Origin: Stenotrophomonas ginsengisoli
Lineage (GTDB): Bacteria > Pseudomonadota > Gammaproteobacteria > Xanthomonadales > Xanthomonadaceae
Direction: 5' to 3'
DNA length: 64,000 nt
Assembly: GCF_001431485.1 (NCBI RefSeq)
Contig: NZ_LDJM01000004.1
Location: 1 to 64,000, forward strand
Shown: one piece after another, positions 7,889 through 28,508 of the stretch
Layout: the number at the start of each line of letters is the position of its first letter
Numbering within the stretch: the first letter of the stretch is position 1
Translations under genes and position numbers: made by a program
Notes under the pieces: model-generated
What the model saw: the letters and a program-made list of their open reading frames with translations, nothing else
What the model was told of the DNA's origin: nothing
The model's database searches: none

Positions 7889-7970
7889 TCCTTGTCATGG
7901 CCCCACATCGCGGGCAAGCTGGAAAATGAGGCATCTGGATCGGTGATGTTGGACAGGGGGCAATGACTGC

Positions 7971-10900
7971 GTGCGCAGGATGATGCACGGCCGTGTGGCC
8001 GCCGGCAGTTGCCGCGCAGTGAGCGTGGTGCTGGCCGCGTTGATGCTGCTGTGGTGCGCGCCGCTGGCCCTGGCCGGCAGCGCACCGGGATGGCAGGCTT
8101 TTGCCGCCCTGCGCGGGCATACCGTGCTTACCGGGGACAATGGCCCGGCCGTGCGCAATGCCTACAGCGTTGCCCAGGACAGCCGTGGCCGGATCTGGAT
8201 CGGCACCAATGACGGGGCCATCCGTCTGGACGGGGATCTGGTCCAGCGTTATGAGCCGGCCCAGGTGCCGGCAATGGCCACCGGTTTCACCCGTGTGTTC
8301 CACCCGCTGGACAATGGCGATGTATTGATCGGTGGTGACCGTGAAGGGGTGCTGCGCTGGCAGCTGGCCGATGACCGCTTTGTGCCGGTGACCCTGGGGG
8401 ACGGCCGGCGTTTGAACCGGATCAATGCGATCGAGCCGGCACGTGATGGCGGCGCCTGGGTGGCCGCCGAACAGGGGTTGTTCTACTGGGATGCCGGCAG
8501 CAACCTGTTGCAGCCAGTGGATCTGGACCTGCCGCGGCCGGTGGACGGCGAGCGCATTTTTGATGTCGAGCAGACGGCTGATGGCACCCTGTGGGTAGCT
8601 GCTGCGCCCGGGCTGTACCAGCGTGGGCCGGGGCAGCGGCAGTTCCAGCCGGTACAGGTGGATCATCCCGGCCTGCAGCAGCGGCTGGACAGCGAGCTGA
8701 TCTGGCAACTGGCCGGTGATGCACAGGGCGGTCTGTGGGTGGGCTTCATCCAGCACGGGGTGGTGCGAATCCAGGGCCGGTACGCCCAGGCCGCGCAGGG
8801 CCTGGATGGGCGCGAAGGCCTGCATGCCGGCAACACTATCCGCGCCTTTGTGCCGATCGCCGGGCAGATGTGGGTGGCAGTGGATGGCCGTGGCCTGATG
8901 GCCATCGAACAGATGCGCACGCGGCCACTGGCGGTGAACCTGAGCCAATTTCTGGGCGGGCGCAATTTCCATCCCAGCCAGATGATCCGCGCCCGCGATG
9001 GCCGCATCTGGGTGGCCAGTGACCGTGGCGTGTTCCATCTGGACCCAGAGCCTGCCGGGATCGTCGAACTCGATGCCAGCCTGCCTGGCGAGCATGCCCA
9101 CCAGCAGCCGGACATGGCCCGCACGCTGCATATCGACCGCCGGGGCCGGCTGTGGATCGGCAACTTTGATGGTGTTGTGCAGGTACTCGATCCGCACAGT
9201 GGGCAACGCCATGTGATCCGCTTGCCGTCACCACTGGACGGCACCGATGTGGTGGCCATCGCCGAAGACAGTACCGGGCAGATCTGGGTAGCCAGCAACG
9301 GGGTGGCGGTGATCGACCCGGACAGCCTGCGCGTACGCGGTGGCAGCGCCTTGGCCCAGGTGCCGGTGCAGCGCTACCTGGCCCTGGCCGCGCAGGGGCA
9401 ACGGGTCTGGGTCGGTGGGCGGGAGGGCATCATCGAACTGGACCTGCAGGGCAGGGTGCTGCGGCGCATGCTTGATCATCACCACGGCCTGCGCAGCAAC
9501 CGGGTGCTCAACCTGGCCGTGCACGCTGACGCCCTGTGGGTGGGTACCGGCGAGGGTCTGCACCGGCTGGATCTGGACACCTGGCAGGCCCGCCATGTGC
9601 CGGTGGGCAGTGCGCGTGGCGACCTGCCGGCCAACCGCTACATCGTCGCCCTTCTGGCCGGGCGCGAGCAGATCCATGCCGGCACCCTGGAAGGTGTCTC
9701 CAGTGGCCTGCCGGCAGACGCCCGGCTGCAACTGCTGCTGCCGGCCATGCCGGGCCCGGGCCGTGGCATTGCCAACCTGGGCGAGGATCCCGCAGGTGGC
9801 TTGTGGGCCGGCATCCGCGATGGCGACCTGTACCACCGTGACCTGCAGGGACACTGGCGCCAGTTCGGTGCCCGTCATGGCCTGCATCCACGCACCCGAC
9901 TGCGGGCTGACAAGATGGTGCGCAGTGCCGATGGCAGCCTGTTCATGGCCGCCGGCAGCGGGGTGATCATGCTCCAGCCCGGCTTGTTGCAGTTGCCGGA
10001 ACCGGCCTTGCCCGACCTGCAGCCACATGTTGTCTCCATGCATCTTGATGGCCACCCGCTGCCGCCCTCGCAACTGCCCGGTGACGGCCAGCGCCTGCAG
10101 CTGGCGCGCGATGTGGAGCGTGTGGCCCTGAGTTTTTCGGCGATGGATTACCTGGCCCCGCAACGACGCCAGTACAGCTACCGCCTGGAAGGCCTGGACA
10201 GCCGCTGGATCAGCGCCAGTGGCCACAACCAGGTGCCCCTGGTGCTGTACAGCCGCCTGCCGGTGGGGCAATACACCCTGCTGCTGCGTACCACCTCCGA
10301 TGAGTACCCGGGCAAGGAATGGATCACCCGCCTGCAGCTGGAGGTGCCGCCGGCCTGGTACCAGCAGTGGTGGGTGCAGTTGCTGGCGCTGTTGCTGTTC
10401 CTGCTGGCGGTGGCCGGCGCGGTGCAGTGGCGGTTGCGGACCGCGCGCCGGCGTGAGCGTCGCCTGCAGCAGCGGGTGCTGGACAGCACCGCCGAGCTGC
10501 GCCAGGCCAATGCACGCCTGGCACAGTTGGTTGGTGAGGATGCCCTGACCGGGCTGGACAACCGACGCCGTGGTTTCGAGCGCCTGGCCGAGCTGCACAC
10601 CTGGCGCCAGCGCATGCGCGGCAGTGACTGTGTGGTGCTGATGGACCTGGACCACTTCAAGCGCATCAATGACCGTTACGGCCACCTCGGCGGCGATGCG
10701 GTGCTGCGTGAGGTCGGCCAGTTGCTGCGCAGCCAGTTGCGCGCCATTGATATCGCCGCCCGTTACGGTGGCGAGGAACTGCTGCTGGTGCTGGTGGATG
10801 CCGATCTGGCCCAGGGCCGCCACACGATCGCGCGCCTGGCCGATGCCCTGCGGCAGATGCCGGTGCTGTATGACGGCCAGTCGATCCATGTGGACGCCAG

Positions 10901-11027
10901 CTTCGGCCTGGCCGCTTCCGATCCAGACCAGCCCATCGAGCAATGGCTGGCCCGGGCCGATGCGGCGTTGTACCGGGCCAAGCACCGCGGGCGTGGCCGG
11001 CTGTGCGTGGACGGTCACGACGACTGA
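7971..11027 (+). CDS. Membrane diguanylate cyclase with periplasmic propeller sensor (copy 2)
   Basis: Paralogue of the preceding gene, 1018 aa, with the same order: signal sequence, Reg_prop propeller repeats (DSRGRIWIGTNDGA, DGRIWVASDRGVFHL), Y_Y_Y domain, one membrane helix at about 797-820 and a GGDEF domain. GGEEL lies at 933-937 and the I-site RAID at 924-927, so it should be catalytically active and product-inhibited. The start is uncertain. GTG 7971 has a G-rich stretch about 10 nt upstream, while ATG 7980 or 7983 would shorten it by 3-4 residues. The 82-nt gap after copy 1 holds no obvious terminator, so cotranscription is possible. Confidence 0.86.
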   Translation: MRRMMHGRVAAGSCRAVSVVLAALMLLWCAPLALAGSAPGWQAFAALRGHTVLTGDNGPAVRNAYSVAQDSRGRIWIGTNDGAIRLDGDLVQRYEPAQVPAMATGFTRVFHPLDNGDVLIGGDREGVLRWQLADDRFVPVTLGDGRRLNRINAIEPARDGGAWVAAEQGLFYWDAGSNLLQPVDLDLPRPVDGERIFDVEQTADGTLWVAAAPGLYQRGPGQRQFQPVQVDHPGLQQRLDSELIWQLAGDAQGGLWVGFIQHGVVRIQGRYAQAAQGLDGREGLHAGNTIRAFVPIAGQMWVAVDGRGLMAIEQMRTRPLAVNLSQFLGGRNFHPSQMIRARDGRIWVASDRGVFHLDPEPAGIVELDASLPGEHAHQQPDMARTLHIDRRGRLWIGNFDGVVQVLDPHSGQRHVIRLPSPLDGTDVVAIAEDSTGQIWVASNGVAVIDPDSLRVRGGSALAQVPVQRYLALAAQGQRVWVGGREGIIELDLQGRVLRRMLDHHHGLRSNRVLNLAVHADALWVGTGEGLHRLDLDTWQARHVPVGSARGDLPANRYIVALLAGREQIHAGTLEGVSSGLPADARLQLLLPAMPGPGRGIANLGEDPAGGLWAGIRDGDLYHRDLQGHWRQFGARHGLHPRTRLRADKMVRSADGSLFMAAGSGVIMLQPGLLQLPEPALPDLQPHVVSMHLDGHPLPPSQLPGDGQRLQLARDVERVALSFSAMDYLAPQRRQYSYRLEGLDSRWISASGHNQVPLVLYSRLPVGQYTLLLRTTSDEYPGKEWITRLQLEVPPAWYQQWWVQLLALLLFLLAVAGAVQWRLRTARRRERRLQQRVLDSTAELRQANARLAQLVGEDALTGLDNRRRGFERLAELHTWRQRMRGSDCVVLMDLDHFKRINDRYGHLGGDAVLREVGQLLRSQLRAIDIAARYGGEELLLVLVDADLAQGRHTIARLADALRQMPVLYDGQSIHVDASFGLAASDPDQPIEQWLARADAALYRAKHRGRGRLCVDGHDD

Positions 11028-11126
11028 GCCCGGGTTGGTTCCGGCTGCGCGCAGGGGTTACTGACGGCGGTTGGTCTGGCGCGGCAATCGGCCTACCATC
11101 GCTTGCCCCCACTTGTGACCCACCCC

Positions 11127-12734
11127 ATGCAGGCTGCTGCCACCTCCACTCCGCCGCGCTGGTTTGTCGCCGGCGACATCAATGGTTTCTTTGGCCTGGT
11201 GGTGGACAACCTGTCCATCCTGGGCTTCATCGCGATGGCCTTGATCGGCATCTTCGGTTTCCCGGCCGAGGTGGTGTTCACCCGCATGTTCCCCGGTACC
11301 GCGCTGGGCGTGCTGGTGGGCAACGTGATGTACACGGTGATGGCACGACGCCTGGCCGCGCGCAGCGGCCGCGCCGATGTCACCGCGATGCCGCTGGGCC
11401 TGGACGCGCCGACCTCCATCGGCATGGCCCTGCTGGTGCTGGGCCCGGCGTTTGCCGGCTTCAAGGCCGCCGGCATGGACGAAACGGCCGCGGCGATGGC
11501 CACCTGGCAGCTGGGCATGGCCTCGCTGGTGGTGATGGGCCTGCTCAAGACCGTGCTGTCCTTTGCCGGTGATGCGGTGACCCGGCATGTGCCGCGTGCG
11601 GCCCTGCTCGGCTCCATCGGTGGTGCGGCGTTGATGCTGCTGGGCTTTTTGCCGCTGATCGAAAGCCTGCGCCAGCCGCTGGTGGGCCTGGTGACCCTGG
11701 GCGTGCTGCTGTATGTGCTGGTGGCTGGTGGCCGGGTGCCGTTGCGGCTGCCCGGGGTGCTGTTTGCGCTGCTGATCGGCGTGGCCCTGTATTACGGCCT
11801 GGGCAGTGCCGGCCTGCTGCCCGGGTTTGCCCTGCCGGCAGGCGTGAGCCTGGCCCCGGCGCTGCCGCTGCCCCGTCTGGGCTTTATCGATGGCCTGCCG
11901 CTGACCGTTCCGTACCTGTCGCTGCTGCTGCCGTTCGGCCTGCTGATGGTGGTGGGCGGGATCAATGTGGCCGAGAGCGCACGCGCTGCCGGCGATGACT
12001 ACCGCACCCGCGATGTGCTGCTGGTCGAGGCGGTCTCCACCCTGGTGGCCGGCGTGTGCGGTGGTGTGGCACAGACCACCCCGTACATCGGCCAGCCGGC
12101 CTACAAGCGCCTGGGCGCACGGACCGGCTACACCCTGCTCACCGGCTTGTTTGTCGGCATCGGCGGCATGCTCGGCGTGGTCGCCGGGCTGGTGCAGTGG
12201 CTCCCGGTTGCGGTGCTGGCCCCGATCATCGTGTTCGTCGGCCTGGACATCACCGTGCAGGCCTTCCAGTCCACCCGTCGCCAGCACGCCATCGCCGTGG
12301 CCCTGGCCTTCCTGCCGGCGGTGGCCTACCTGATCAACATCAAGTTCGGTAGCTGGGTCGCCCCGGACGCTGCCGCGGCCCTGTATGCGGCGGTGGACAG
12401 CCACGGTTTGAGTGATGTGGCTGCCCTGCAGGTGCTGGGCAACGGCTTCATCATCACCGCCATCATCTGGGCCGCCAGCCTGATCGCCCTGATCGAGCGT
12501 CGTGCCGGCGTGGCCATGGCCGTTCTGCTGCTCGGCGCGCTGTTCACCGCGTTCGGGGTGATGCATTCCACCGACCCGCGTGGCGGGGTCTACCTGCCGT
12601 GGAGCATCGACGGCCTGCGCGCGGCCATCACCTGGCAGCTGGCCGCGGCCTATGCCGTGCTGGCCGTGGTGCTGGGCCTGTTGTCCTGCTTGTGGCCGGG
12701 CGTGGACACGGCCCATGGCCATGGGCAGGATTGA
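11127..12734 (+). CDS. NCS2-type (xanthine/uracil-like) permease
   Basis: Polytopic inner-membrane protein of 535 aa with about 12 or more hydrophobic segments. The N-terminus has GDINGFFGLVVDNLSI and AMPLGLDAPTS, and the later GGVAQTTPYIGQPAYK segment matches the substrate-binding region of AzgA/xanthine-uracil permease relatives. A nucleobase or related anion is the likely cargo, but it cannot be assigned from sequence. The ATG at 11127 is preferred over the GTG at 11115 and the TTG at 11103, which add only a few residues. It is followed after 3 nt by a DUF4166 gene, so the pair is probably an operon. Confidence 0.82.
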   Translation: MQAAATSTPPRWFVAGDINGFFGLVVDNLSILGFIAMALIGIFGFPAEVVFTRMFPGTALGVLVGNVMYTVMARRLAARSGRADVTAMPLGLDAPTSIGMALLVLGPAFAGFKAAGMDETAAAMATWQLGMASLVVMGLLKTVLSFAGDAVTRHVPRAALLGSIGGAALMLLGFLPLIESLRQPLVGLVTLGVLLYVLVAGGRVPLRLPGVLFALLIGVALYYGLGSAGLLPGFALPAGVSLAPALPLPRLGFIDGLPLTVPYLSLLLPFGLLMVVGGINVAESARAAGDDYRTRDVLLVEAVSTLVAGVCGGVAQTTPYIGQPAYKRLGARTGYTLLTGLFVGIGGMLGVVAGLVQWLPVAVLAPIIVFVGLDITVQAFQSTRRQHAIAVALAFLPAVAYLINIKFGSWVAPDAAAALYAAVDSHGLSDVAALQVLGNGFIITAIIWAASLIALIERRAGVAMAVLLLGALFTAFGVMHSTDPRGGVYLPWSIDGLRAAITWQLAAAYAVLAVVLGLLSCLWPGVDTAHGHGQD

Positions 12735-12737
12735 GCG

Positions 12738-13274
12738 ATGACCCAGCCCAGCGTGTTTGCCCAGTTGCTCGGTACGCAGTTTGCGCATCTGTCGCCCCGC
12801 GTGGCGCAGTTGCACCAGCTCGACGGGCCGGGCCACTGGCAGGGGCAGTGCGTCATCCAGCGCGGCCAGCATCCCGTGGCCCGGCTCTGCGCCTGGGCGG
12901 CACGCCTGCCGCCGGGCGGGCAGGCGTTGGCCACCACGGTGACCCTGCAGCGCAGTGCCGGGCAGGAAACTTGGACGCGCAACTTCGGCGGGGTGCCGAT
13001 GCGCTCGCGGATGTGGCCCTGGCAGGGCCGGTTGCGCGAGCGCCTGGGGCTGGTGCAGTTCGATTTCCAGCTGGGCGTCCAGGATGGCGCCTTGACCTGG
13101 AACACGCGGGCGGTGCGGGTACTGGGCATTGTGCCGCTGCCGGCCGCCTGGTTTGCCGGCGTGCAGTGCACCGAGGCGGTGGACGGGCAGGGCCGCTACA
13201 CCTTCGATGTGCGTGCCAGCCTGCCGCTGGTCGGCCTGATCGTGCATTACCGCGGCTGGTTGCTGCCCGGCTGA
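12738..13274 (+). CDS. DUF4166 domain protein
   Basis: 178-aa protein resembling the DUF4166 family (core segments TWTRNFGGVPMRSRM, LGLVQFDFQLGVQDGALTW and the ending GLIVHYRGWL). In the family this domain is found alone or fused to oxidoreductase-like modules; its biochemical role is unknown. No signal peptide or membrane segment is evident. It starts 3 nt after the permease gene, which suggests coupled expression and possibly a shared substrate. Confidence 0.75.
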   Translation: MTQPSVFAQLLGTQFAHLSPRVAQLHQLDGPGHWQGQCVIQRGQHPVARLCAWAARLPPGGQALATTVTLQRSAGQETWTRNFGGVPMRSRMWPWQGRLRERLGLVQFDFQLGVQDGALTWNTRAVRVLGIVPLPAAWFAGVQCTEAVDGQGRYTFDVRASLPLVGLIVHYRGWLLPG

Positions 13275-13345
13275 GGCAACCCGGCAGGCGATACCGGAAA
13301 TTTCAGCAAGCTGGGCGTCAGCTGCGGCACGGCGCTTTCCTATAT

Positions 13346-13364
13346 GATAATGATTCTCGTTAGA
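13346..13364 (+). promoter_or_regulatory. Fur box upstream of the TonB-like gene
   Basis: GATAATGATTCTCGTTAGA closely matches the 19-bp Fur consensus (GATAATGATAATCATTATC), strongest in the left half. It ends 5 nt before the ATG at 13370, so Fur binding would block promoter clearance or translation-start access. It implies iron repression of the downstream tonB-like gene. Confidence 0.75.
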
Positions 13365-13369
13365 GCGTC

Positions 13370-14275
13370 ATGGGCACCCGCGTGGGTATCGCAGCAGGCA
13401 AGCACGGCATTGGCAGCACCCCGCAGGCAGGCCCGGCGTGGGCGGGCCTGCATTTCGGCCCGCGCCCGTCCGCGCCGGCAGGCCCGGGGCGGGGGCGTCA
13501 TTGGCCGCTGGCCCTGGCCAGCCTGGCCGCGCACGGTCTGCTGATTGCAGCCCTGTTGCAGGCCGCGCCCAGCCAGCCGCTGGCTGGCAACAGCGAATCT
13601 GCCCCCGAGCGCGTCCAGCTGCGCTTCGTCACTGCATCCAGCATCCTGCGCGAGCAGGGCGCGGCAGCGGCCAGCCCGGCATCGCTGTCCCCGCCACAGG
13701 CGCCGGCCTCGACATCGACATCGACAGCGAGCACCACGGCAACGGCCAGGCCCTTGCCGGTCAGCCCGGTGCCTGCGCCGCTGGCCGTGGCAAGCCTGCC
13801 TGCTGCGACCGGGCCGGCATCTGCGCCCCCGGCCGGCCCTGCGGTGCAGAGTGTGGCGGCCACTGCCGCGGCGCCGGCCACAGCGGCCGATGCCACGGCA
13901 GCCAGCCATGGCACTGCCGGGCCTGGCCTGGCGGCACACGGCCACGGCAGCGCCTCACACAGCAGTGCCCCGGCCCAGGACAGCCAGGGCGTGGCCGACT
14001 GGAGCCAGGCAGTGATGCGCCAGCTGGCCCGCTTCCGTACCTATCCGGCTGCCGCCCGCGCCCAGCGCGTGGAAGGAGTGGTGATGGTGCATGCCACCAT
14101 CGCCGCCGATGGCCAGGTGCTGGCCACCCGGGTGCGTCATTCCTGCGGCAACCCGGATCTGGATGCCGAAGCCCTGGCCACCTTCAGCCGCGCCCGTCGC
14201 CTGCCGGCCCCGCCGGCGCACCTGCCCAGTCCGCTCCAGGTGGACCTGCCGGTGGCCTTCACCCTGCGCAGCTGA
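13370..14275 (+). CDS. TonB-family energy transducer
   Basis: 301-aa TonB-like protein that should link the proton motive force to TonB-dependent outer membrane receptors. There is a short basic, Gly/Pro-rich cytoplasmic segment, one membrane helix (~47-66, PLALASLAAHGLLIAALLQ), a long Ala/Pro/Thr-rich periplasmic spacer and a C-terminal TonB domain (RFRTYPAAARAQRVEGVV, then AADGQVLATRVRHSCGNPDLD). ExbB/ExbD are not adjacent. The Fur box immediately upstream predicts induction under iron limitation, matching the Fur-marked receptor at 16.7-19.3 kb. The ~45-residue N-terminal part before the helix is longer than usual, and an internal start cannot be excluded. Confidence 0.83.
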   Translation: MGTRVGIAAGKHGIGSTPQAGPAWAGLHFGPRPSAPAGPGRGRHWPLALASLAAHGLLIAALLQAAPSQPLAGNSESAPERVQLRFVTASSILREQGAAAASPASLSPPQAPASTSTSTASTTATARPLPVSPVPAPLAVASLPAATGPASAPPAGPAVQSVAATAAAPATAADATAASHGTAGPGLAAHGHGSASHSSAPAQDSQGVADWSQAVMRQLARFRTYPAAARAQRVEGVVMVHATIAADGQVLATRVRHSCGNPDLDAEALATFSRARRLPAPPAHLPSPLQVDLPVAFTLRS

Positions 14276-14325
14276 TCCGTTTTGCTGCCGACACTGCCGT
14301 CCCGATCAGGGGGGGGCGGGCAAAT

Positions 14326-14496
14326 CGTCGCTGCCGGGGCAGCTTCTACAGGGACGCTTGGCCTGTGCACCTACCGGTAGGTGCGGCTCCAGCCGCGAGG
14401 CGGAGTGCCTCGTCGGGAAAGCCGTCGCTGCCCGGGCAGCTCCTGCAGGGGCGCTTGGTCCCTGCATCTACTGGCAGGAGCGGCTCCAGCCGCGAG
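14326..14496. repeat. Pair of REP-type direct repeats of about 74 nt
   Basis: Two tandem-oriented copies, 14326-14399 and 14423-14496, share CGTCGCTGCC, CAGCTTCTACAGGG or CAGCTCCTGCAGGG, and end in TGCGGCTCCAGCCGCGAG or AGCGGCTCCAGCCGCGAG. The final part is a GC-rich hairpin of the REP class common in Stenotrophomonas and Pseudomonas. No transposase (RAYT) lies nearby. Confidence 0.75.
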
Positions 14497-14530
14497 AGTC
14501 GCTTGGAGAGGCTGTGCGAGAATCGCGTGC

Positions 14531-15271
14531 ATGGTGATCAACGCGGAACATTTCCAGGCACTGCGCCTGCTGCTGGACGACCCCAGCCTTCCCAAACCTC
14601 CCGTGCCTGCGTGGCCGGGCGCACTCCCTGCAGGCGAATATGCCTGTGATGCAGCCCCTGGCCCAAGTGGCGCCATCCAGCACGCCGTGCTGTCGTTATT
14701 CCAACGCTCCGGGCGGCCCTGTTTGAGCACCGACGGCGCCACGGGTACCGTGCGCCAGACCCTGCACACACCGTTCCAAGGGTTGGAATGCTGGCAATGG
14801 GATATCGACTGGGACGACGGCAGCGGCACTTTGCGCTGCGAACGCCTGTGGCTGCATGCACGCAACGGTCAACGCTTTGACCTCTACGATGCACAGGGCC
14901 AGTGCACTACGTACACACTGGTGGCCGAAGAGGTGATCGCGCAGCGCTGCCTGTGGCCGGAGCCTTTGTGCATGGCCGTCTACCAAGCCATTGATACAGC
15001 GCACCTGCCCAGCTATCTGCACCAGATCGAAATTCTGGAATATGACGACCAGCCCCTGCTGCAATGCGGTATTGGGTGTTGCACGGTGAACGATGCGCAG
15101 ACCGATGCGGACGGCATTTACCACGCCATGCTGGAGTGGTCGCTGCACCAGGACGTTGGGAATGTGCTGGCACCCACGCAGATCCGCTGGCACATCCATG
15201 ACGGGGATCGTTTTGACTGGCTGCATGCCGATGGCAGCGCCACGCCCTTTACGTGGCTGCGCAACATCTAG
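14531..15271 (+). CDS. Hypothetical protein, family not recognised
   Basis: 246-aa protein that I do not recognise. It is soluble-looking, acidic and aromatic-rich (ECWQWDIDWDDGSG, RFDWLHADGSATPFTW), with several scattered Cys residues including CGIGCC, and has no signal peptide or membrane helix. The ATG at 14531 is chosen because upstream in-frame sequence lies within REP repeats. It sits alone between REP elements and a strong terminator shared with the convergent peroxidase gene, so it is probably monocistronic. Codon use looks ordinary for the window apart from some lower-GC stretches. Confidence 0.62.
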   Translation: MVINAEHFQALRLLLDDPSLPKPPVPAWPGALPAGEYACDAAPGPSGAIQHAVLSLFQRSGRPCLSTDGATGTVRQTLHTPFQGLECWQWDIDWDDGSGTLRCERLWLHARNGQRFDLYDAQGQCTTYTLVAEEVIAQRCLWPEPLCMAVYQAIDTAHLPSYLHQIEILEYDDQPLLQCGIGCCTVNDAQTDADGIYHAMLEWSLHQDVGNVLAPTQIRWHIHDGDRFDWLHADGSATPFTWLRNI

Positions 15272-15345: not shown

Positions 15346-15370
15346 AAAAGCACCTCAACGAGGTGCTTTT
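15346..15370. terminator. Bidirectional intrinsic terminator
   Basis: A 10-bp perfect stem AAAAGCACCT / AGGTGCTTTT with loop CAACG. The A-tract on the left arm and T-tract on the right arm allow termination from both sides. It separates the unknown gene at 14.5 kb from the convergent peroxidase/receptor operon. Confidence 0.88.
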
Positions 15371-15491
15371 CTCCAGCTGCCTGCTGCAGATACAGCGCAG
15401 CGCACTGTGTTCAGAATGGCAGCTTGGGCATGCCGCCGCCGTCCATCATGCGCGGCAGCGCCACCGCTGTGGTTGTTGTGGGCAATCCAGC

Positions 15492-16682
15492 TCACAGGGT
15501 GCTGAGGAAATCCAACAGTGCCTGGCGTTCGGCGGCGCTCAGGCCCAGTGGCTGCAGCAGCGGGTCGGTGGTGGGGAAGCTGGGGTCATTGGCCTGTTCA
15601 CCGACCGGGCGCGGGCGGAAGGCGCCGGCGTTGTACATGTTGACGATGCCCTCCAGGTTGGGGAACAGGCCGTTGTGCATGTACGGGCCGTTGCGCGGCA
15701 CATTGCGCAGCGAGGGAGTGCGGAAGGCGCCGCTGTCGGCCGGGTTGCCGGTCACTCCATAGCGGCCCAGGTCTTCCAGCTCGCGGCCGAAGAAGTGGAT
15801 GCCCAGGTTGTGGAAGGCATCGTCGCTCATGGTCGGGCCGTTGTGGCAGTTGATGCAGCGCGCCTTGGTGCGGAACAGGTGCAGGCCGAGCAGCTGGTTG
15901 TCGCTCAGGGCGTTGTCGCGGCCGGCCAGGTAACGGTCAAAGCCGCGGTTGCGCGGGTACAGGGTGCGCTGGAAGGCGGCGATGGACTTGGCCACCTTGT
16001 CCATGGCGATGCGGCCCGGCCCGAAGGCCGCGTCAAACTGCTCGCGGTAACCGGCATCGCGGCGCAGGTAGCGCTCCATGCGGGCGATGGTATTGGCCAT
16101 TTCAACCGGGTCATGGATCGGGAACTGTGCCTGGTTTTCCAGGCTGCCGCCACGGCCGTCCCAGAACTGGTGTGCGCTGTAGGGGGCCATGGACACGTCC
16201 ATGGCATTGCGCCGGCCGGGCTGGCGGTCATGGCCGAAGGAGACGCGCTTGCCATCGCCCCAGCCGAGCTGGCGGTCATGGCAGTTGGCGCAGGCAATCT
16301 GTCCGGAGGCCGACAGCTTCGGGTCCTCGAACAGACGCTGGCCCAGGGCCACCTTCTGCGCTGTGCCGGGGTTGTCGGCCGGCTCCGGTGGTGGCAACAG
16401 TGGCCCCAGTTCGCGCCGCGCCACGCCCTCGGACCAGTACGCGGCCGGCCAGTGCGCCGGCGTCTGCCGGTACAGCGCCCGCAGGCAGCTGATGTCCTGG
16501 CTGCCATCGGCCAGCTGCCGCTGGCAGTTTTCCAGTGCAGCACCGGAGTGGTCATCAGCCTTGCCCGGGGCGACGCAAAGCACGATGCCTGCCAGGGTCA
16601 TCAGGCCCAGGCAGGCATACAGATAGCGCCGCAGACGCTGGCGGGCGTTGAACGACGCTGACGTGGGGGCGGGGGCTGACAT
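15492..16682 (-). CDS. Di-heme cytochrome c peroxidase / MauG-family protein
   Basis: 396-aa exported di-heme protein. An N-terminal hydrophobic anchor (YLYACLGLMTLAGIVLC) is followed by about 90 residues outside the usual catalytic core. Two c-type heme sites follow: CANCH (with DRQLGWGDGKRVSFGHD) and CINCH (with NGPTMSDDAFHNLG), plus the family segment FWDGRGGSLENQAQ. Such enzymes reduce peroxide or carry out MauG-like oxidations in the periplasm. The start at 16682 gives MSAPAPTSASF and leaves 46 nt after the receptor gene, so the two form an operon downstream of a Fur box. The substrate is unknown; see the finding on this pair. Confidence 0.87.
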   Translation of the reverse strand: MSAPAPTSASFNARQRLRRYLYACLGLMTLAGIVLCVAPGKADDHSGAALENCQRQLADGSQDISCLRALYRQTPAHWPAAYWSEGVARRELGPLLPPPEPADNPGTAQKVALGQRLFEDPKLSASGQIACANCHDRQLGWGDGKRVSFGHDRQPGRRNAMDVSMAPYSAHQFWDGRGGSLENQAQFPIHDPVEMANTIARMERYLRRDAGYREQFDAAFGPGRIAMDKVAKSIAAFQRTLYPRNRGFDRYLAGRDNALSDNQLLGLHLFRTKARCINCHNGPTMSDDAFHNLGIHFFGRELEDLGRYGVTGNPADSGAFRTPSLRNVPRNGPYMHNGLFPNLEGIVNMYNAGAFRPRPVGEQANDPSFPTTDPLLQPLGLSAAERQALLDFLSTL

Positions 16683-16728
16683 ACCGTTACCAATGAGAGG
16701 GCGCCGGCGGTGCCGGCGCCATGACAGC

Positions 16729-19284
16729 TTAGAACCTGTAACCCAGCTCCACCCAGAACGAGCGGCCGGTTTCGTACTGCGGGATGTCCTGGGCACCCAG
16801 GCTGGTGACATTGACCCGGTCCAGCAGGTTGAAGATGTCCAGGTTCACGAACGCGGCCTGCTGGCCGGCCAGGGCCTTTTCCCAGCTGATGCGCACATCC
16901 CAGTTGAGGCTGGCGCAGAAATCGCGGCGGTCGTAGACATCGGCAATCACGCCGTTGACCTCCACGCTTTCACCGGTCTTGCCGATGTCGCGGTAACCGG
17001 CGCGGTAACGCAGGAAGTGGGTGATGGCCAGGTCCCAGCGCTCGATGGCGGTGGTGGTGGTCAGGCGCGCGGTCCACGGCCGGGTGTAGTTGTTGGCCGG
17101 CAGCTGGCTGCGGTGCAGCAGCTGGCCCAGGTACTGCACATAGTCGGTGTCGTAGTACAGGTTGCCGGCAGCGTCATCCTGGTAGCTGGGCGAGGCGTAC
17201 TTCTGGTCGGTCCAGTCCAGTGCGGCCTGCCAGACGGTGGTGCTGCCGGCCCAGCGCAGCGGCTGGCGACCATCGGCGGTCAGGCTCCAGATCTGGTTGT
17301 GGCTGCGCCCGTCATTGGTCCAGGTGGTATAGCCGGCGGACAGGTCGCGGGTATCGGTCGAGGGTTCGCCGATGGCCAGGCCCGAGGCCTGGATGACCTG
17401 GTCGCGGCCAAGACGGTTGATGAACTTCAGGCCCAGGGTGGCCGCCTCGAAGCGCTGGCTGAAACCAAGCATCAGCTCATCGTCATAGGCGACGTCGAGC
17501 TGGTTGAAGACGTTGTCGGCCGGGGCCTGGGTGCCGACAGTCCAGGCATCGTCCAGGGAGTTGCGGCGCTCGCCGTTGTAGCGCAGGCGGTTGATGTTTT
17601 CCTGCAGGCGCCAGCGGGCGATGGAGCGGCCGTAGTAGCGGTTCACGCCGGCCTGGAGCAGGCGGCTGCCATCAGCGTCGATATCCCACGAGGCGGCCAG
17701 ACGCGGGGCCAGGGTGGTCTGTGCCATGTAGTCATCACGTTCCACGCGCAGGCCCGGGCGCACGGACACATTGCCGATGCGCATGTCGTCTTCCACATAC
17801 AGCGCGCCAGACAGGGTGCTGAAGCCGAACCCGCCCACCGCATAGCGGGTGCGGTTGCTGAAGAACTGCCCGGCCCAGCCGTTGTTGGTGGCCACCGTGC
17901 TGTGGGTGGTGCCCATGGCGCAGGTGGTGGTGTCGGTGATGCCGGCACTGTTGCTGCAGGTGCTGGTGCGCTTGGGCACCACGTAGATGCTGCTCTCGCT
18001 CAGGCGGGCATAGTCGTAGGCATCGCGGCCCAGCTGGGCGCCGGCGCTGAGGCGGTGCAGCACGCTGCCGGTGGCGATCGGGTCCCAGCGCACATCCAGC
18101 TTGTACTGGGCGCTGCGTTGTTCCTGTTCGACCTGGCCGTACTCGCCCTGCAGGCTGTTGTTGCCGGTGCCCCAGTCCTTGGAGTCGGAGCGGGTCCAGG
18201 CGTAGTAGTCATCGCTGTGGCCGTGGCGGCTCTGCTCGTTGCGGGTCAGGCCCAGTTGCTGGTCCACCTGGCCCCAGTCGGTACGCCAGTCCAGCCGCAG
18301 GTTGGCCTGCAGGCCGCCGTTGCGGATATCAATCTGCGAATCGACGATGTTGGAGCGGAAATAGGTGTCTTCCTGCGGCGCGTACATCAGGCTGGCCTGC
18401 AGCTCGATGCGCTCGCTGGCTTCCCACACAGCCTTGATGAAGGCGTTGTCGATGGCCCGTTGCTGGGTGCGCTTGTCCTTGCCGTACTGCTCCACCAGGT
18501 GGGAGGAATAGAACATGGACGGAATGGTCGAGCGCTTGCGGCTGAAGCTGGCCAGCACGCCGACGTCATCGCTCAGCCAGCCTTCGCTGGTGGCACGCCA
18601 GGTGGTCTTCTCGAACTCCGGCTGGCCATCGCCCCAGGAGGACGCATTGGCATAGCTTTCGCGTTGCGCTGCATTGACGTGGTAATGCGTCCACGACGAG
18701 CGGCTCATCTGGGTGGAGATTTCACTGCGCGTCTGCCGGCTCGGCTTGCGCGTGACCGCATCGACCACACCGCCGGTGAAACCACCCCAGGCCGCGGAGA
18801 CGTTGCTGTCCAGCACGGTCAGCTCACCGAGCAGGCGCGCATCCAGGGCAAAGGCCTGGCTGCTGCCCGGGCCGCCGTACAGGCGGTAGGGCGAGGCATC
18901 ACCGGCCGGGTCGATGCTGTTGTTCATGCCCATGCCATCGATGCTGAAGTTGTTCTGGTAGAACGCCGCACCGTTGATGCTGACCTCGGCGGGGCTGATC
19001 TCGCCGGGGGTGAAGCTGGAGAGCTGGCCGTTGTCGTACTGCACGGCCGGGTTGATCTTGAGCAGGCTGCCGATATCGCCATTGCCGGCTGGCTGGTTGG
19101 CAATGTAGCTGGCATCCAGGGTCTGCTTGCCGGCGTACGGGCTGCTGGCCGCCTCGTCCTCCACTTCCAGGGTGGGCAGGACCAGGTCACTGCCGTGGGA
19201 CTGGGCGGCGGCGCTGAGCGGGGCCAGCAGGGCGCCGAGCAGGGCAAGGCAGAGCGGATGCTGGGCAGGCAGGTGACGGCTCAC
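16729..19284 (-). CDS. TonB-dependent outer membrane receptor
   Basis: 851-aa TonB-dependent receptor. A signal peptide ends near LSAAAQS, a short TonB-box-like segment (DLVLPTLEVEDE) follows, then the plug domain (ISPAEVSINGAAFYQNNFSIDGMG, with GGFTGGVVDAVTRKP at its end). A long beta-barrel ends in the terminal aromatic signature VELGYRF needed for Bam-dependent insertion. A Fur box lies 209 nt upstream, so iron repression is likely, and the next gene is a di-heme peroxidase. The ligand is not identifiable; a ferric siderophore or another metal complex fits the regulation. Confidence 0.9.
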   Translation of the reverse strand: MSRHLPAQHPLCLALLGALLAPLSAAAQSHGSDLVLPTLEVEDEAASSPYAGKQTLDASYIANQPAGNGDIGSLLKINPAVQYDNGQLSSFTPGEISPAEVSINGAAFYQNNFSIDGMGMNNSIDPAGDASPYRLYGGPGSSQAFALDARLLGELTVLDSNVSAAWGGFTGGVVDAVTRKPSRQTRSEISTQMSRSSWTHYHVNAAQRESYANASSWGDGQPEFEKTTWRATSEGWLSDDVGVLASFSRKRSTIPSMFYSSHLVEQYGKDKRTQQRAIDNAFIKAVWEASERIELQASLMYAPQEDTYFRSNIVDSQIDIRNGGLQANLRLDWRTDWGQVDQQLGLTRNEQSRHGHSDDYYAWTRSDSKDWGTGNNSLQGEYGQVEQEQRSAQYKLDVRWDPIATGSVLHRLSAGAQLGRDAYDYARLSESSIYVVPKRTSTCSNSAGITDTTTCAMGTTHSTVATNNGWAGQFFSNRTRYAVGGFGFSTLSGALYVEDDMRIGNVSVRPGLRVERDDYMAQTTLAPRLAASWDIDADGSRLLQAGVNRYYGRSIARWRLQENINRLRYNGERRNSLDDAWTVGTQAPADNVFNQLDVAYDDELMLGFSQRFEAATLGLKFINRLGRDQVIQASGLAIGEPSTDTRDLSAGYTTWTNDGRSHNQIWSLTADGRQPLRWAGSTTVWQAALDWTDQKYASPSYQDDAAGNLYYDTDYVQYLGQLLHRSQLPANNYTRPWTARLTTTTAIERWDLAITHFLRYRAGYRDIGKTGESVEVNGVIADVYDRRDFCASLNWDVRISWEKALAGQQAAFVNLDIFNLLDRVNVTSLGAQDIPQYETGRSFWVELGYRF

Positions 19285-19492
19285 GTGTTTTCTCTAAGGA
19301 CAGCGCACACGGCATGGCCAGGCGGCGCGTTGGGCGCCGGCACAAGGGGCCGTGGTGCAAGGCAGGAGGGGCGCATCGAAAGATGCGCGGTCATGCAGGC
19401 GCTGGCTGTGCGTTCAGGCCGCCGGGCGGGGAGAGAGGCCGGCCGGTGGGATGGGCGTAACTGGCGTGCGGAAGCAGGTAACCGATGCCAAT

Positions 19493-19511
19493 GATAATGA
19501 TTCTCATGTGC
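19493..19511 (-). promoter_or_regulatory. Fur box upstream of the receptor/peroxidase pair
   Basis: GATAATGATTCTCATGTGC matches the Fur consensus, with GATAATGATTCTCAT nearly ideal. It lies about 209 nt upstream of the minus-strand receptor gene. clpB reads away on the other side and is not expected to be iron-regulated. Together with the box at 13346 it defines a small iron-responsive block. Confidence 0.72.
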
Positions 19512-22434: not shown

Positions 22435-24003
22435 TTAGTGAAGCCGCATCGCCGCTTGCTGGCTGTGCTCCTGCTGTTGTGCCTGCAGCGGATGATCGGC
22501 CTGCGGCGTTGTTTCCAGCGCCTGCGCCCGCTGCAGCGACTGGCTTTCCGGTGCGGCCACCGCCTCGGCGGTAGGCAGGTGGGCACGCCGATGGGCGGGG
22601 TCGTCCGGTGAGCCCTGCACCAGGAAGACATGCGCCCCGGCCGGTTGGGTGGCCGTGGCCTGGCTGAGCAGCACATGGTCCACCCGTTCAAAGCCGTGTT
22701 CGCGCGCGCTGGCATACAGGCTGGCACTCAGGTTGGCGCTGTGCTGGTCCCAGGGCTTGCCCTGCGCGGCATCCAGTTGCGCCACCTTGCCCTGGATCTG
22801 TTCCAGCAGCGGGTCGGCGCGCTCGTGATGGCTGGGGGGAGCGGCGGCCATGGGCAGCTCGGCCAGCGTGTCCGGTTGCCGCAGCTGGCTGGTGGCTGGC
22901 CCGGCGCTGGCCGGGGCCAGCGTCGGAGGGCTGGTCATCGGTGCCATCGGCGGCGGCAACACCACACTGCCCGGTGCGGCGGGCCCATGCAGCCCGTGTG
23001 GCACATTCGGGGCCGGCACATGGTGGGGCAGGGCATAGAACGGGAGGTTCGGGGCGCCGGTGTCCTGGATCGCCAGGGTCCGGCCGCTGCCGCCCAGGTT
23101 GATGCCATTGCAGTTCAGCAACTCCGGGCGTAGCCCCAGTCTGCCCATGTCCAGGCTGATGGGTAAGGCGGTGTTGCTGTCCCAGACACGGTGGGCGGCC
23201 TGTTCGGCATTGGCGATCACCTGCAGGGCGGTCGCCGCATAGTAATTCGGGTAATCCGAGTGCCCGGTTGTCCCCATCCGGAGTATCTGCGGCGGCTTGT
23301 TGTAGTAATGCTGGTCTATGGCCGCCTGGTTGCCGGCATCCAGGGTCAGGGTGTTGTCTGGGTTGGGGGAGTAACCGGGTTTCCATGTAGCGGTCTTGGT
23401 ACTTTGATCGTAATCGAAGTAGTCCAGCATTCGACTGCCGCCCAGTGCGTGCAACTCTGTTGGGTCTACACTCCTGCCCTCCGCCAGCAAGCGGTCAGCC
23501 AGGATGTTCAAGCCACGTACCTGTGCGCTGGCTTCGTCCCAACGGGTCTGGTTCAAATATGTTTCGAGCGGGGCGCTGTAGTCTCGTGGCGGCTCACCGC
23601 CGGCATCGGCCACCTTCCTGGCATCGCGGTGGTAGTCCATCCAGACGTCGGCCATCTGGCTTGCATTGCGCGCGTGTTCCAGTTCGTGGGCGAACAGGAA
23701 GGTCAGTTTCCCCGAATCGGTTCGATTACTACTGGCGCGCAACAATGAGTCCAGTTCCAAGTTCAGGCTGCCGGAGGACGGGTCATATTCCGCTCCCCGA
23801 TTACTGCCGGGTGCTAGCAGTCCCAGAGTTGTCAATTCAGGCTTGCTGTCACTGCTGTTGGCCAGGGTGTCATTGAACAGGTCAACCAAGGCCGGTGAGC
23901 TGGTGATGGCATCGCGCAGGCCGTCCATATGCTGCTGCGTTACGCCGGGCTGGCTGGTCAGGGTAGTGAGCAGGCTCTCGGCTTCGGGGCTGAGCACGCT
24001 CAT
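22435..24003 (-). CDS. XVIPCD-containing type IV secretion effector with HELEH zincin motif (X-Tfe)
   Basis: 522-aa predicted antibacterial effector of the Xanthomonadales killing T4SS. About residues 395-490 form an XVIPCD, the domain recognised by the VirD4 coupling ATPase; visible landmarks are REHGFERVDHVLLS and LVQGSPDDPAHRRAHLPT. A Gln-rich tail follows. Residues 310-395 are a Pro/Ala-rich linker. The N-terminal half carries H106-E-L-E-H110 within FLFAHELEHARN, a zinc metallopeptidase motif, and E157 in WDEASAQ is a plausible third ligand. ATG 24003 overlaps the TGA of the upstream immunity gene by 4 nt (ATGA), so translation is probably coupled. Its target is unknown; the lipoprotein immunity partner suggests it acts in the periplasm. 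Confidence 0.85.
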   Translation of the reverse strand: MSVLSPEAESLLTTLTSQPGVTQQHMDGLRDAITSSPALVDLFNDTLANSSDSKPELTTLGLLAPGSNRGAEYDPSSGSLNLELDSLLRASSNRTDSGKLTFLFAHELEHARNASQMADVWMDYHRDARKVADAGGEPPRDYSAPLETYLNQTRWDEASAQVRGLNILADRLLAEGRSVDPTELHALGGSRMLDYFDYDQSTKTATWKPGYSPNPDNTLTLDAGNQAAIDQHYYNKPPQILRMGTTGHSDYPNYYAATALQVIANAEQAAHRVWDSNTALPISLDMGRLGLRPELLNCNGINLGGSGRTLAIQDTGAPNLPFYALPHHVPAPNVPHGLHGPAAPGSVVLPPPMAPMTSPPTLAPASAGPATSQLRQPDTLAELPMAAAPPSHHERADPLLEQIQGKVAQLDAAQGKPWDQHSANLSASLYASAREHGFERVDHVLLSQATATQPAGAHVFLVQGSPDDPAHRRAHLPTAEAVAAPESQSLQRAQALETTPQADHPLQAQQQEHSQQAAMRLH

Positions 24004-24755
24004 GGCCGCACCTGCTGAGGCATCGGCTGGAGGGTGATGCCTTTGATGCACAGCCGCCCATTCAACTGGGTGCTGGGGAGAAGAGCGACGGTCAATGCGA
24101 AGTGCTCTGTCTCAGCGATATGGTGCAGTGGGCCGGTTCTGTACCAATTCACAAAGCCCATCGCTTCCAGCTCGGGGCGCAAGGCCGCCCAGTCGGTCGG
24201 GCCATCGCAGATCGGGGCCGGGTCCATATACGCCGAATCAGCCAATGGGCGGTGCTCTACAAAAACACGTATCTCCGGCACGACGGAAGTGTCGTTCAAA
24301 AACCAGACCATTGCCCAGTTCGCGTGGATGCGTGCGCTATAACCATGGCGTGGTGGGGGCATTCCATCACTGGGCATCCCCAGTGCCTTTCCGGCAATTT
24401 CCGGTGTGATGTCGGCAAAGCGTGGCACCGTGCGTAGCAGGTGCAACACGCCCTGCCAGGCACGCTCGGGGCTGTGGCCCTCCCGGATGGGCCAGGTCTC
24501 CCAGCGTTTTACGTAGTCGTCGTGTTGTTGCTGCGTGGTCATACGGGCAGTTCCTTCCTTGGCGGTTGCTGCGGTTGCTGCGGTTGCTGCGGTTGCTGCG
24601 GTTGCTGTGGCTGTGGCTGTGCTTACTGTGGCTGTCGAGTTGGCGGTGCTGGCCGGGGTATCTGCTGCGTGCGTGTCGCCGCCATGACGGCAGCCGGCAA
24701 GCGTCAGCAGCATTGCCATGGCCAGGCAGGGCATCCGGTGTGTACGCATGGGCAT
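24000..24755 (-). CDS. Immunity lipoprotein 1 (X-Tfi), directly upstream of the intact effector
   Basis: 251-aa periplasmic lipoprotein, predicted to protect the cell from the adjacent effector. The lipobox is LTLAGC, followed by CRHGG; lack of Asp at +2 suggests outer-membrane sorting. The linker is the longest of the six: an Ala/Thr run (~33-64) encoded by a GTTGCTGCG-like microsatellite. The globular part has QQQHDDYVKRW, REGHSPERAWQGVL and FADITPEIA. The central block (SDGMPPPRHG.., WFLNDTSVVPEIRVFVEH) is unique to this copy, while the C-terminal block (VNWYRTGPLHHIAETEHF) is shared with copies 2 and 5. The stop codon overlaps the effector ATG. Being next to the full effector, it is the best candidate cognate antidote. 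Confidence 0.82.
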   Translation of the reverse strand: MPMRTHRMPCLAMAMLLTLAGCRHGGDTHAADTPASTANSTATVSTATATATAATAATAATAATAKEGTARMTTQQQHDDYVKRWETWPIREGHSPERAWQGVLHLLRTVPRFADITPEIAGKALGMPSDGMPPPRHGYSARIHANWAMVWFLNDTSVVPEIRVFVEHRPLADSAYMDPAPICDGPTDWAALRPELEAMGFVNWYRTGPLHHIAETEHFALTVALLPSTQLNGRLCIKGITLQPMPQQVRP

Positions 24756-24815
24756 CCAGGTCCTTGTCGATGTGTGCAGGGTAACGGTGCCGTTGCAGGC
24801 AAGCCCGGAAGCCGG

Positions 24816-24972
24816 TCACATCACCGGCGTTGTGCAGGACAGGCTGTCGCTCCACCAAGGCCGGTGAACGGGTGATGGCATCGCGCAGGCCGTCCATATG
24901 CTGCTGCGTTACACCGGGCTGGCTGGCCAGGGTAGTGAGCAGGCTCTCGGCCTTGGGGCTGAGCACGCTCAT
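24816..24972 (-). pseudogene. Effector 5' fragment, unit 2 (frameshifted)
   Basis: Begins at ATG 24972, overlapping the TGA of immunity gene 2, and reads MSVLSPKAESLLTTLASQPG like the intact effector. Compared with the other fragments it lacks 8 nt (ATTGAACC on the plus strand), so after about 41 codons the frame shifts and runs on to 24367, across the start of immunity gene 1 in another frame. It lacks the catalytic region and XVIPCD, so it cannot be a toxin. Confidence 0.8.
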
Positions 24973-25667
24973 GGCCGCACCTTCTGCGGCATCGGCTGGA
25001 GGGTGATGCCTTTGATGCATAGCCGCCCATTCAACTGGGTGCTGGGGAGAAGAGCGACGGTCAATGCGAAGTGCTCTGTCTCAGCGATATAGTGTAGTGG
25101 GCCGGTTCTGTACCAGTTCACAAAGCCCATCGCTTCCAGCTCGGGGCGCAAGATCGCCCAGTCGGTCGGGCCATCGCATACCGGGGCCGGGTCCATGTAG
25201 GTAGAACCGGGTACCGGACGGTGGCCTACTGATACCTCCAGCATCGGCACGACTGTGCGTTCATCCAGAACCCAGCCCAGTGCCCAGTCCGGATGGATAC
25301 GCGCGCTGTAGCCGCGCAGGGGCGGGGGCAGGCTTTGCCCGGGCATCCCCAGCGCCGGCCCGGCGATTTCCGGGGTGATGTCGGCAAAGCGCGGCACGGT
25401 GCGTAGCAGGTGCAACACCCCCTGCCAGGCGCGCTCGGGGCTGTGGCCCTCGCGGATGGGCCAGGCCTCCCAGCGTTTTATTTCCTCATCGTGTTGTTGC
25501 TGCAGGGTCATACGGGCAGTTCCTTCCTTGGCGGTTGCTGTGGTTGCCGTGCTGACGGCATTGGCTGGGGTATCTGCTGCGTGCGTGCCGCCGCTATGAC
25601 GGCAGCCGGCAAGGCCCAGCAGCAGGGCTGCGGCCAGGCAGGGCATCAGGGGTGTGCGCATGGGCAT
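24969..25667 (-). CDS. Immunity lipoprotein 2 (X-Tfi paralogue)
   Basis: 232-aa lipoprotein with lipobox LGLAGC, a shorter Ala/Thr linker and QQQHDEEIKRW at the domain start. The central block (GQSLPPPLRG.., LDERTVVPMLEVSVGHRPVPG) is nearly identical to copy 6; the C-terminal block (VNWYRTGPLHYIAETEHF) matches copies 1 and 5. The start is the ATG of MPMRT preceded by AAGGACCT in a suitable Shine-Dalgarno position; a TTG one codon upstream is rejected. Its stop overlaps the ATG of effector fragment 2. Confidence 0.82.
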   Translation of the reverse strand: MPMRTPLMPCLAAALLLGLAGCRHSGGTHAADTPANAVSTATTATAKEGTARMTLQQQHDEEIKRWEAWPIREGHSPERAWQGVLHLLRTVPRFADITPEIAGPALGMPGQSLPPPLRGYSARIHPDWALGWVLDERTVVPMLEVSVGHRPVPGSTYMDPAPVCDGPTDWAILRPELEAMGFVNWYRTGPLHYIAETEHFALTVALLPSTQLNGRLCIKGITLQPMPQKVRP

Positions 25668-25727
25668 CAAGGTCCTTGTCGATGCGTGCAGGGTAGCGGA
25701 GCCGTTACAGGCAAGCCCGGAACCGGG

Positions 25728-25892
25728 TCACATCCCCGGCGCTGTGCAGGCCAGGGTGTCATTGAATAATTCCACCAAAGCCGGTGAACTGGTGATGGCA
25801 TCGCGCAGGCCGTCCATATGCTGCTGCGTTACACCGGGCTGGTTGGCCAGGTCGCTGAGCAGGCTTTCGGCCTTGGGGCTGAGCGTACTCAT
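25728..25892 (-). pseudogene. Effector 5' fragment, unit 3 (54 codons)
   Basis: Starts at ATG 25892 within ATGA and encodes 54 residues beginning MSTLSPKAESLLSDLANQPG, the most divergent of the fragments. It matches effector residues 1 to about 48 (ending NDTLA) and then switches to CTAPGM and a stop. This junction is shared with units 4-6. It is either a degenerate remnant or a small translated protein coupled to immunity gene 3. Confidence 0.8.
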
Positions 25893-26602: not shown

Positions 26603-26662
26603 CCAGGTCCTTGTCGATGTGTGCAGGGTAATAGTGCAGTTACAGGCAAGCTCGTGAGCCGA

Positions 26663-26827
26663 TCACATCACCGGCGCTGTGCTGGCCACGCTGTCATGGG
26701 ACAGGTCAACCCAGGCTGGTGAGCTGGTGATGGCATCGCGCAGGCCGGCCATATGCTGCTGCGTTACGCCGGGCTGGCTGGCCAGGGTAGTGAGCAGGCT
26801 CTCGGCCTTGGGGCTGAGCACGCTCAT
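26663..26827 (-). pseudogene. Effector 5' fragment, unit 4 (54 codons)
   Basis: ATG 26827 overlaps the stop of immunity gene 4. It encodes MSVLSPKAESLLTTLASQPG.. and ends DSVASTAPVM with the shared junction. Substitutions relative to the intact effector (HMAGLRD, WVDLSHDS) show independent drift without stop codons or frameshifts. Confidence 0.8.
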
Positions 26828-27525: not shown

Positions 27526-27585
27526 CAAGGTCCGTGTGGATGCGTGCAGGGTAGCTGAGCCGTTACAGGCAAGCCCGGAAGCCGG

Positions 27586-27750
27586 TCACATCACCGGCGT
27601 TGTGCAGGACAGGCTGTCATTGAACCGCTCTACCAACGCGGGTGAGCTGGTGATGGCATCGCGCAGGCCGGCCATGTGCTGCTGCGTTACACCGGGCTGG
27701 CTGGCCAGGGTAGTGAGCAGGCTTTCGGCCTTGGGGTTGAGCACGCTCAC
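27586..27750 (-). pseudogene. Effector 5' fragment, unit 5 (54 codons, GTG start)
   Basis: The overlap here is GTGA rather than ATGA, so the fragment would start with GTG at 27750. It encodes VSVLNPKAESLLTTLASQPG.. and ends DSLSCTTPVM with a stop. The frame is intact despite the changed start. Confidence 0.78.
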
Positions 27751-28448: not shown

Positions 28449-28508
28449 CAAGGTCCTTGTCGATGTGTGCAGGGTAACGGTGCCGTTGCAGGCAAGCCCG
28501 GAAGTCGG

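Follow-up and report, generated by a model that had tools for sequence, protein, structure and literature searches.

A FusA/YddB-type receptor gene and a MauG-like di-heme enzyme gene paired in Stenotrophomonas ginsengisoli, with a possible role in iron piracy

The receptor-enzyme locus and its products

The sequence analysed here (hereafter the window) comprises 64,000 nucleotides, positions 1 to 64,000 of contig NZ_LDJM01000004.1, from the 3.37 Mb genome of Stenotrophomonas ginsengisoli. Within it, an open reading frame (ORF) for a TonB-dependent receptor is followed on the minus strand by an ORF for a di-heme CCP_MauG enzyme, the start of which lies 46 base pairs (bp) past the receptor stop (Table 1). 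An earlier note on this DNA had described the two as adjacent behind a Fur-like box and had assigned the enzyme an extra N-terminal region. Both descriptions are borne out, by the spacing of the ORFs and a box at 19487-19511 that matches at 15/19 positions, and by the roughly 100 residues that precede the enzyme domain, about 43 of which look by eye like a signal peptide while about 57 form a conserved module. The closest named locus among those fetched is that of Stenotrophomonas koreensis DSM 17805, where the enzyme is 86%, the receptor 89% and ClpB 95% identical.

Table 1. Features of the receptor-enzyme locus, in window coordinates
Feature	Position	Strand	Basis
TonB-dependent receptor, FusA/YddB family	16729-19284	-	ORF, GTG start, 851 amino acids; phmmer against PDB, Foldseek
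Di-heme CCP_MauG enzyme	15492-16682	-	ORF, 396 amino acids; PF03150 E 2.6e-48; two CXXCH motifs
N-terminal module, enzyme residues 44-100, with C53, C66, W78	16383-16553	-	Conservation; helices 47-58, 64-71
First heme motif CANCH, enzyme residues 131-135	16278-16292	-	Motif, alignment
H151, column where most classical peroxidases have His	16230-16232	-	Alignment, 80/81
Second heme motif CINCH, enzyme residues 276-280	15843-15857	-	Motif, alignment
Y350, aligned with MauG Tyr294, predicted axial ligand of six-coordinate heme	15633-15635	-	Alignment, 81/81
Fur-like box 5' of receptor	19487-19511	-	Two overlapping 15/19 matches
Second Fur-like box, directly 5' of TonB gene	13340-13364	-	15/19 at 13346-13364
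TonB-family protein, candidate energiser	13370-14275	+	TonB_C E 1.2e-14; TIGR01352 64 bits
Terminator-like inverted repeat between enzyme and convergent gene ending at 15271	15346-15371		By eye

No Pfam model reports the receptor at E 0.01. In a phmmer search against the Protein Data Bank (PDB), it matched FusA (4zgv, E 3.8e-83) and YddB (6ofr, E 2.8e-62) and no other distinct sequence at E <= 0.001; it is 25% identical to YddB across 822 aligned columns. Foldseek searches with its predicted structure (mean predicted local distance difference test score, pLDDT, 82.5) likewise returned 4zgv (E 3.5e-69) and 6ofr (8.8e-64), followed by a siderophore receptor at 7.4e-30. Both lines of evidence place the receptor in the FusA/YddB family, whose members are known or proposed to import proteins, and not among siderophore receptors. 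Uptake of plant ferredoxin by FusA involves the TonB-like protein FusB and is followed by cleavage of the ferredoxin by FusC, an M16 protease (PMC7593965, PMC6793856).

The enzyme's CCP_MauG domain spans residues 109-256 and scores 164.9 bits, the model's cut-off being 25.6. Its best NCBIfam models are those of MbnH (TIGR04039, 200.7 bits) and MauG (TIGR03791, 191.5 bits), and both scores fall under the curated cut-offs of 362.85 and 443.85. The signal-like start predicts a periplasmic protein. In the AlphaFold2 model the N-terminal module contributes two helices (47-58 and 64-71), and block means of pLDDT are at least 90 over residues 51-120 and below 50 over 127-160, the stretch that holds the first heme motif and H151. 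The top structural matches of this model include classical peroxidases. The earlier note had likened the locus to metallophore systems. A metallophore or methanobactin reading is no longer the favoured one, given a FusA/YddB-like receptor and an enzyme that misses the MbnH cut-off; the accompanying suggestion of an oxidation step tied to release of imported metal is retained as the leading idea.

Residue comparisons were made across 81 linked-type loci, namely the window and the best 80 of 428 confirmed enzyme relatives from named genomes. The MauG-like character proposed in the earlier note is upheld at the axial-ligand position. Y350 aligns to residue 294 of solved MauG and to a Tyr of solved MbnH, and is invariant in the linked-type enzymes (81/81; the adjoining M349 in 28/81), while classical cytochrome c peroxidases, the control in the same alignment, have Met in this column. 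Tyr alone is not unique to linked-type enzymes, because a second Tyr-bearing group sits among the background CCP_MauG proteins. W78 of the N-terminal module, by comparison, was found in 81/81 linked-type enzymes and 0/37 background proteins, and C53 and C66 in 47 and 46 of the 81. The window enzyme thus shares with MauG and MbnH its fold, the Tyr ligand position and the W174 and E194 columns, but differs from them in its extra module and in scoring under both cut-offs. With classical bacterial cytochrome c peroxidases it shares the fold and the H151, W174 and E194 columns, H151 corresponding by alignment to the distal His of their peroxidatic heme, but carries Tyr, not Met, at the six-coordinate, high-potential heme; the H151 column holds Asp in MauG and Ser in MbnH. 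In a tree that included MauG and MbnH, one branch (79/98) separated 31 linked-type from 35 background rows; its bootstrap had not settled, MauG, MbnH and L046 were long branches, and two background rows (L043 and L045, truncated or odd) were left out.

Conservation of the pair and variation of its partners

The linked-type loci span Gamma- and Alphaproteobacteria, Campylobacterota, Bacteroidota and Planctomycetota. The neighbourhood survey suggested by the earlier note found the pair to be co-conserved, with a FusA-type receptor gene directly upstream of the enzyme gene and on the same strand in 66/81 loci. Among the others, L100 has a receptor fragment about 7 kb from the enzyme, the intervening stretch not being resolved, and L176 has its receptor on the opposite strand with a large protein in between. 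A family survey of 149 genomes gave seven with a strong receptor match and nine receptor loci, one of them (G130 C74) matched by a piece only (E 6.5e-11); five further short-piece matches (E 2.6e-4 to 7.8e-4) were set aside. Eight of the nine had an adjoining enzyme, and at the G130 C74 locus (L053) the receptor is 24% and the enzyme 60% identical to those of the window. The pair is patchy, being present in 2/6 genomes of the window's genus in this survey.

These surveys bear on the possibility that the enzyme serves in peroxide defence and shares an iron-regulated operon with the receptor by chance. Di-heme enzymes are indeed common, with some match at E <= 0.001 in 56/149 family genomes. However, all eight family enzyme matches of at least 386 bits lie beside a FusA-type receptor, the next best scoring 203 bits, and the gene order kept in most linked-type loci and the subfamily's own N-terminal module also argue against a loose neighbourhood, which we consider very improbable.

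To examine the linkage from the receptor side, we used 22 receptor-seeded loci from partly overlapping searches of 149, 369 and 398 genomes; as at most two candidates per genome were scored in the two larger searches, this number is a lower bound. The enzyme was found in 15/22 loci, directly downstream in 14 and within 2 kb in another orientation in L095. A PqqL-type M16 protease was found in 5/22, directly adjoining the receptor in all five, and no locus had both. A search with E. coli PqqL located M16 genes in 7/107 loci (a set that includes the same place fetched twice, e.g., L048/L110, L050/L099, L052/L105 and L053/L116), namely E. coli itself, the five receptor-seeded loci and L160 of Pseudomonas dryadis, in which receptor plus enzyme and receptor plus M16 protease lie in tandem (4924-14668). 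A YddA-type ATP-binding cassette (ABC) transporter accompanies 6/7 M16 loci and 0/100 others. In L160 only part of this transporter is present, at the locus end; in L192, the seventh locus, which is without it, the M16 gene lies at the contig edge. The first 40 kb of the window gave no match to PqqL (M16) at E <= 1e-5 or to a YddA/FusD-type ABC transporter at E <= 1e-10.

Within one receptor family, the neighbouring gene is thus in some loci that of a protease and in others that of the di-heme enzyme, and the version with the enzyme also does without the YddA-type transporter. In a quick receptor tree, built from 39 of the 65 enzyme-linked and all 7 M16-linked receptors, the starred branches require a minimum of two switches of partner. 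From this alternation we infer an equivalent action on imported cargo, so that the enzyme would fill the same functional slot as the M16 protease.

The receptors have diverged further than the enzymes beside them. Across 65 loci and 2080 pairwise comparisons (L100, L156 and L176 having been dropped from the 68 loci with a receptor match), mean identity was 56% for enzymes and 35% for receptors, the enzyme being more alike in 99% of comparisons, although the loci had been picked by enzyme similarity, which favours higher enzyme identity. Seven Stenotrophomonas enzymes form one clade (100/100). Their receptors do not follow suit: those of L127 and L163 cluster with that of the window, whereas L117 and L137 have receptors that cluster with the ones from Xanthomonas and Lysobacter. 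L127 and L137 both adjoin clpB, and their enzymes are 74% but their receptors only 38% identical. Because alike enzymes stand beside unlike receptors at this site, the simplest account is that one member of the pair was replaced at an unchanged position.

The partner comparison also bears on what the enzyme might act upon. It could be a MauG- or MbnH-like maturase that oxidises a Trp or Tyr of a partner protein and so equips it for a part in uptake, with the receptor, TonB and an unseen metal-binding protein as candidate partners. The Tyr at the MauG Tyr294 position, the W174 and E194 columns common to MauG and MbnH, and the identity of the best NCBIfam models would all fit this, but both NCBIfam scores lie well below their cut-offs, and a maturase would not be expected to swap places with a protease. 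An MbnP-like gene (TIGR04052) had no match in the genome, though control genomes gave no match either. The receptor itself was rejected as a target of such modification: no Trp or Tyr column is peculiar to enzyme-linked receptors. More broadly, when columns of Trp, Tyr, His, Cys, Met or Lys with at least 85% conservation among the 65 enzyme-linked receptors were compared, every one also occurred among the M16-linked receptors, which number only seven. The largest column differences between the two groups were G472 (89% against 0) and C443 (66% against 0), the latter belonging to the six residue types compared but falling under the 85% line. On this balance we regard a maturase as unlikely.

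A further alternative is that the receptor imports a small ligand (a siderophore, heme or other chelate) which the enzyme oxidises, freeing the metal. The substrate of YddB is still undecided in the text of PMC6793856 covered here, and the same enzyme type accompanies a different receptor family in Bacteroidota. Against this, the receptor model is far closer to FusA and YddB than to receptors for siderophores or heme, and M16 proteases, cutters of proteins or peptides, adjoin sister receptors, making a small ligand rather improbable.

Fur-like boxes, the TonB gene and other neighbours

Fur-like sites were scored against the 19-letter Fur box consensus GATAATGATAATCATTATC. The two boxes in Table 1 (at 19487-19511 and 13346-13364) tie for the top score in the 64 kb, and the best match in 20 simulated first-order sequences, with one strand scanned, was 13/19. 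The first box lies about 205 bp from the receptor start and is also 5' of the divergent clpB (start at 19644). The Fur-like site reported in the earlier note is thus present, and its core is retained in the nearest relative, S. koreensis, in a gapped alignment of a region that is 76% identical. The second box is retained there as well (L098, position 10436), 5' of the TonB ORF. The first box suggests that the receptor-enzyme pair may be under Fur and iron control.

A TonB gene lies near the enzyme in S. koreensis L098 as it does in the window, and the window's copy at 13370 is a candidate energiser of the receptor. Across the genome, TonB_C gave ten matches, of which nine exceed the cut-off; two of the matches apparently share one open frame.

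Several neighbouring genes were recorded in passing. The convergent gene adjoining the enzyme (14531-15271, plus strand) has no Pfam or NCBIfam match at E 0.01. Among the other loci, L047 has extracytoplasmic function (ECF) sigma factor and FecR genes upstream (7430-9233), with relatives in L051 (sigma factor) and L053 (both), and the receptors of L047 and L051 carry an N-terminal extension; a FecR-like gene cluster was noted by eye in 33/81 loci. Proteins of about 1100 amino acids with no Pfam match over the cut-off stand beside FusA-type receptors in L176 (4527-7820) and L080 (3786-7097).

Further along the window, a cluster on the minus strand (22435-29401) begins with an ORF containing an X-Tfes XVIPCD domain (PF20410, E 2.6e-24), a domain characteristic of the killing effectors of type IV secretion in Xanthomonadales. 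Behind it come some six tandem copies of a unit of about 0.92 kb, which encode similar lipoprotein-like products and also repeat the start of the effector ORF. The lipoprotein-like products are candidate immunity proteins.

A possible route of iron piracy

The Fus system of Pectobacterium consists of the FusA receptor, the FusB TonB protein, the FusC M16 protease and the FusD ABC transporter. The window resembles it in receptor family and fold and in having a nearby TonB gene with its own Fur-like box, but lacks an M16 protease or YddA/FusD-type transporter match in its first 40 kb and has a di-heme enzyme in the protease's place. Similarly, in both the window and the YddB-PqqL pair of E. coli a receptor gene is followed by that of a periplasmic processing enzyme; there, however, the enzyme is an M16 protease and YddA lies beside the pair. 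The pairing seen here is itself already in print, in a few sentences: Grinter et al. (2019, PMC6793856) report FusA homologues with cytochrome c peroxidases where FusC is absent, e.g., in an Achromobacter/Bordetella cluster, and the window is a further member of this group. Xanthomonas and Stenotrophomonas are absent from the main text of that paper, and the parts of it covered here contain no analysis of subfamily, ligand, N-terminal module or partner exchange. Beyond PMC6793856, a literature search of titles and abstract starts found no study of the linked-type enzyme. The literature covered likewise contained no description of the Tyr ligand or the N-terminal module, of the switches of partner, of receptor exchange at a fixed site or of the Bacteroidota variant presented below.

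Taken together, we propose, with a probability of about 0.5, that the pair is a two-gene operon for iron piracy that works by protein import in the manner of FusA and YddB, with peroxide-driven heme chemistry taking the place of proteolysis. When iron is short, as the Fur-like box would suggest, the receptor would capture an extracellular iron-bearing protein and, by analogy with FusA, use energy from TonB to carry it into the periplasm. There the MauG-type enzyme, charged by peroxide, would make this protein cargo yield its iron, as FusC or PqqL does in the sister systems. Chemically, a high-valent heme state would probably oxidise either the cargo or the iron cofactor within it.

The published suggestion, from the same paper by Grinter and colleagues, is instead that such an enzyme reduces the imported protein, loosening its iron cofactor; a related option is a plain peroxidase that removes peroxide arising from iron release. 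The His at the H151 column, as in most of the classical peroxidases aligned, and the classical peroxidases among the best structural matches of the model would suit such roles. On the other hand, all linked-type enzymes have Tyr in place of a Met ligand at the six-coordinate heme. Met ligation is associated with a stable mixed-valence peroxidase, and Tyr ligation is the arrangement of MauG (PMC6405878); the same Tyr-or-Met criterion is applied in PMC7567364. A lead to a Leptospira peroxidase was dropped, since that enzyme is without the Tyr ligand according to PMC7567364. Because the Tyr is invariant, we prefer oxidation to reduction, and because H151 is kept and the Tyr-bearing BthA nonetheless converts peroxide to water (PMC6405878), ordinary peroxidase chemistry retains some probability. 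Reduction and plain peroxidase activity together seem improbable to us.

A number of observations weigh against the proposed iron-piracy operon. At the level of chemistry, H151, a classical peroxidase feature, is present in 80/81 enzymes, and BthA shows that a Tyr-bearing enzyme can be a peroxidase. In the literature covered, protein import has been demonstrated for FusA only. Two of the 22 receptor-seeded loci have neither partner (G130 C17, with its receptor close to the end of a contig, and G268, with the enzyme on a separate contig), and the receptor tree behind the partner changes was a quick one with long branches for L192 and YddB (both M16-linked) and L116. TonB ORFs were found near the enzyme in only 12/81 loci with a search profile built from eight TonB domains of the window's genome, and for this reason a dedicated TonB is not supported as a general partner. 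The cross-locus Fur signal is modest: matches of at least 14 lie within 2.6 kb upstream in 23/64 loci, many of them close kin, against 4/64 gene-internal stretches, one of which (L098) is a true box inside an ORF that was called too long. Within 400 bp, the corresponding figures are 15 loci and 2.

The remaining points come from the more distant loci. In L172, L164 and L177 (Bacteroidota or Planctomycetota) the enzyme is present but no FusA-type receptor was found, and in ten Bacteroidota operons (L159, L130, L133, L135, L150, L157, L162, L165, L174 and L175) the enzyme is accompanied by a TonB receptor of another kind, a lipoprotein-like DUF4876 protein and a DUF6850 protein. The Pfam names were obtained for L159, and the other nine operons were assigned by clustering. 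In Porphyromonas and Bacteroides, loci that resemble these operons in having a DUF4876-receptor pairing are reported to respond to a lack of iron with strongly increased expression (PMC10434189). A bolder version of the proposal would accommodate this variant: high-valent heme chemistry would have replaced proteolysis, one conserved enzyme would open many imported iron proteins through oxidation of their cofactors, receptors would be swapped like cassettes, and in Bacteroidota the same enzyme would work with a receptor unrelated to these, alongside DUF4876 and DUF6850 proteins. This is possible but doubtful, and we offer it only tentatively.

In the literature covered, the import of whole proteins for their iron has been worked out in detail only for the Fus system. 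If the proposed iron-piracy operon is real, a di-heme oxidant in place of a protease would be a second bacterial way to strip iron from stolen proteins, and would give MauG-type enzymes a new job. The question can be tested by contrasting the protease version with the heme-enzyme version, for instance in a Pseudomonas that carries the two in tandem, and a conserved enzyme beside changing receptors would aid the search for the cargo.

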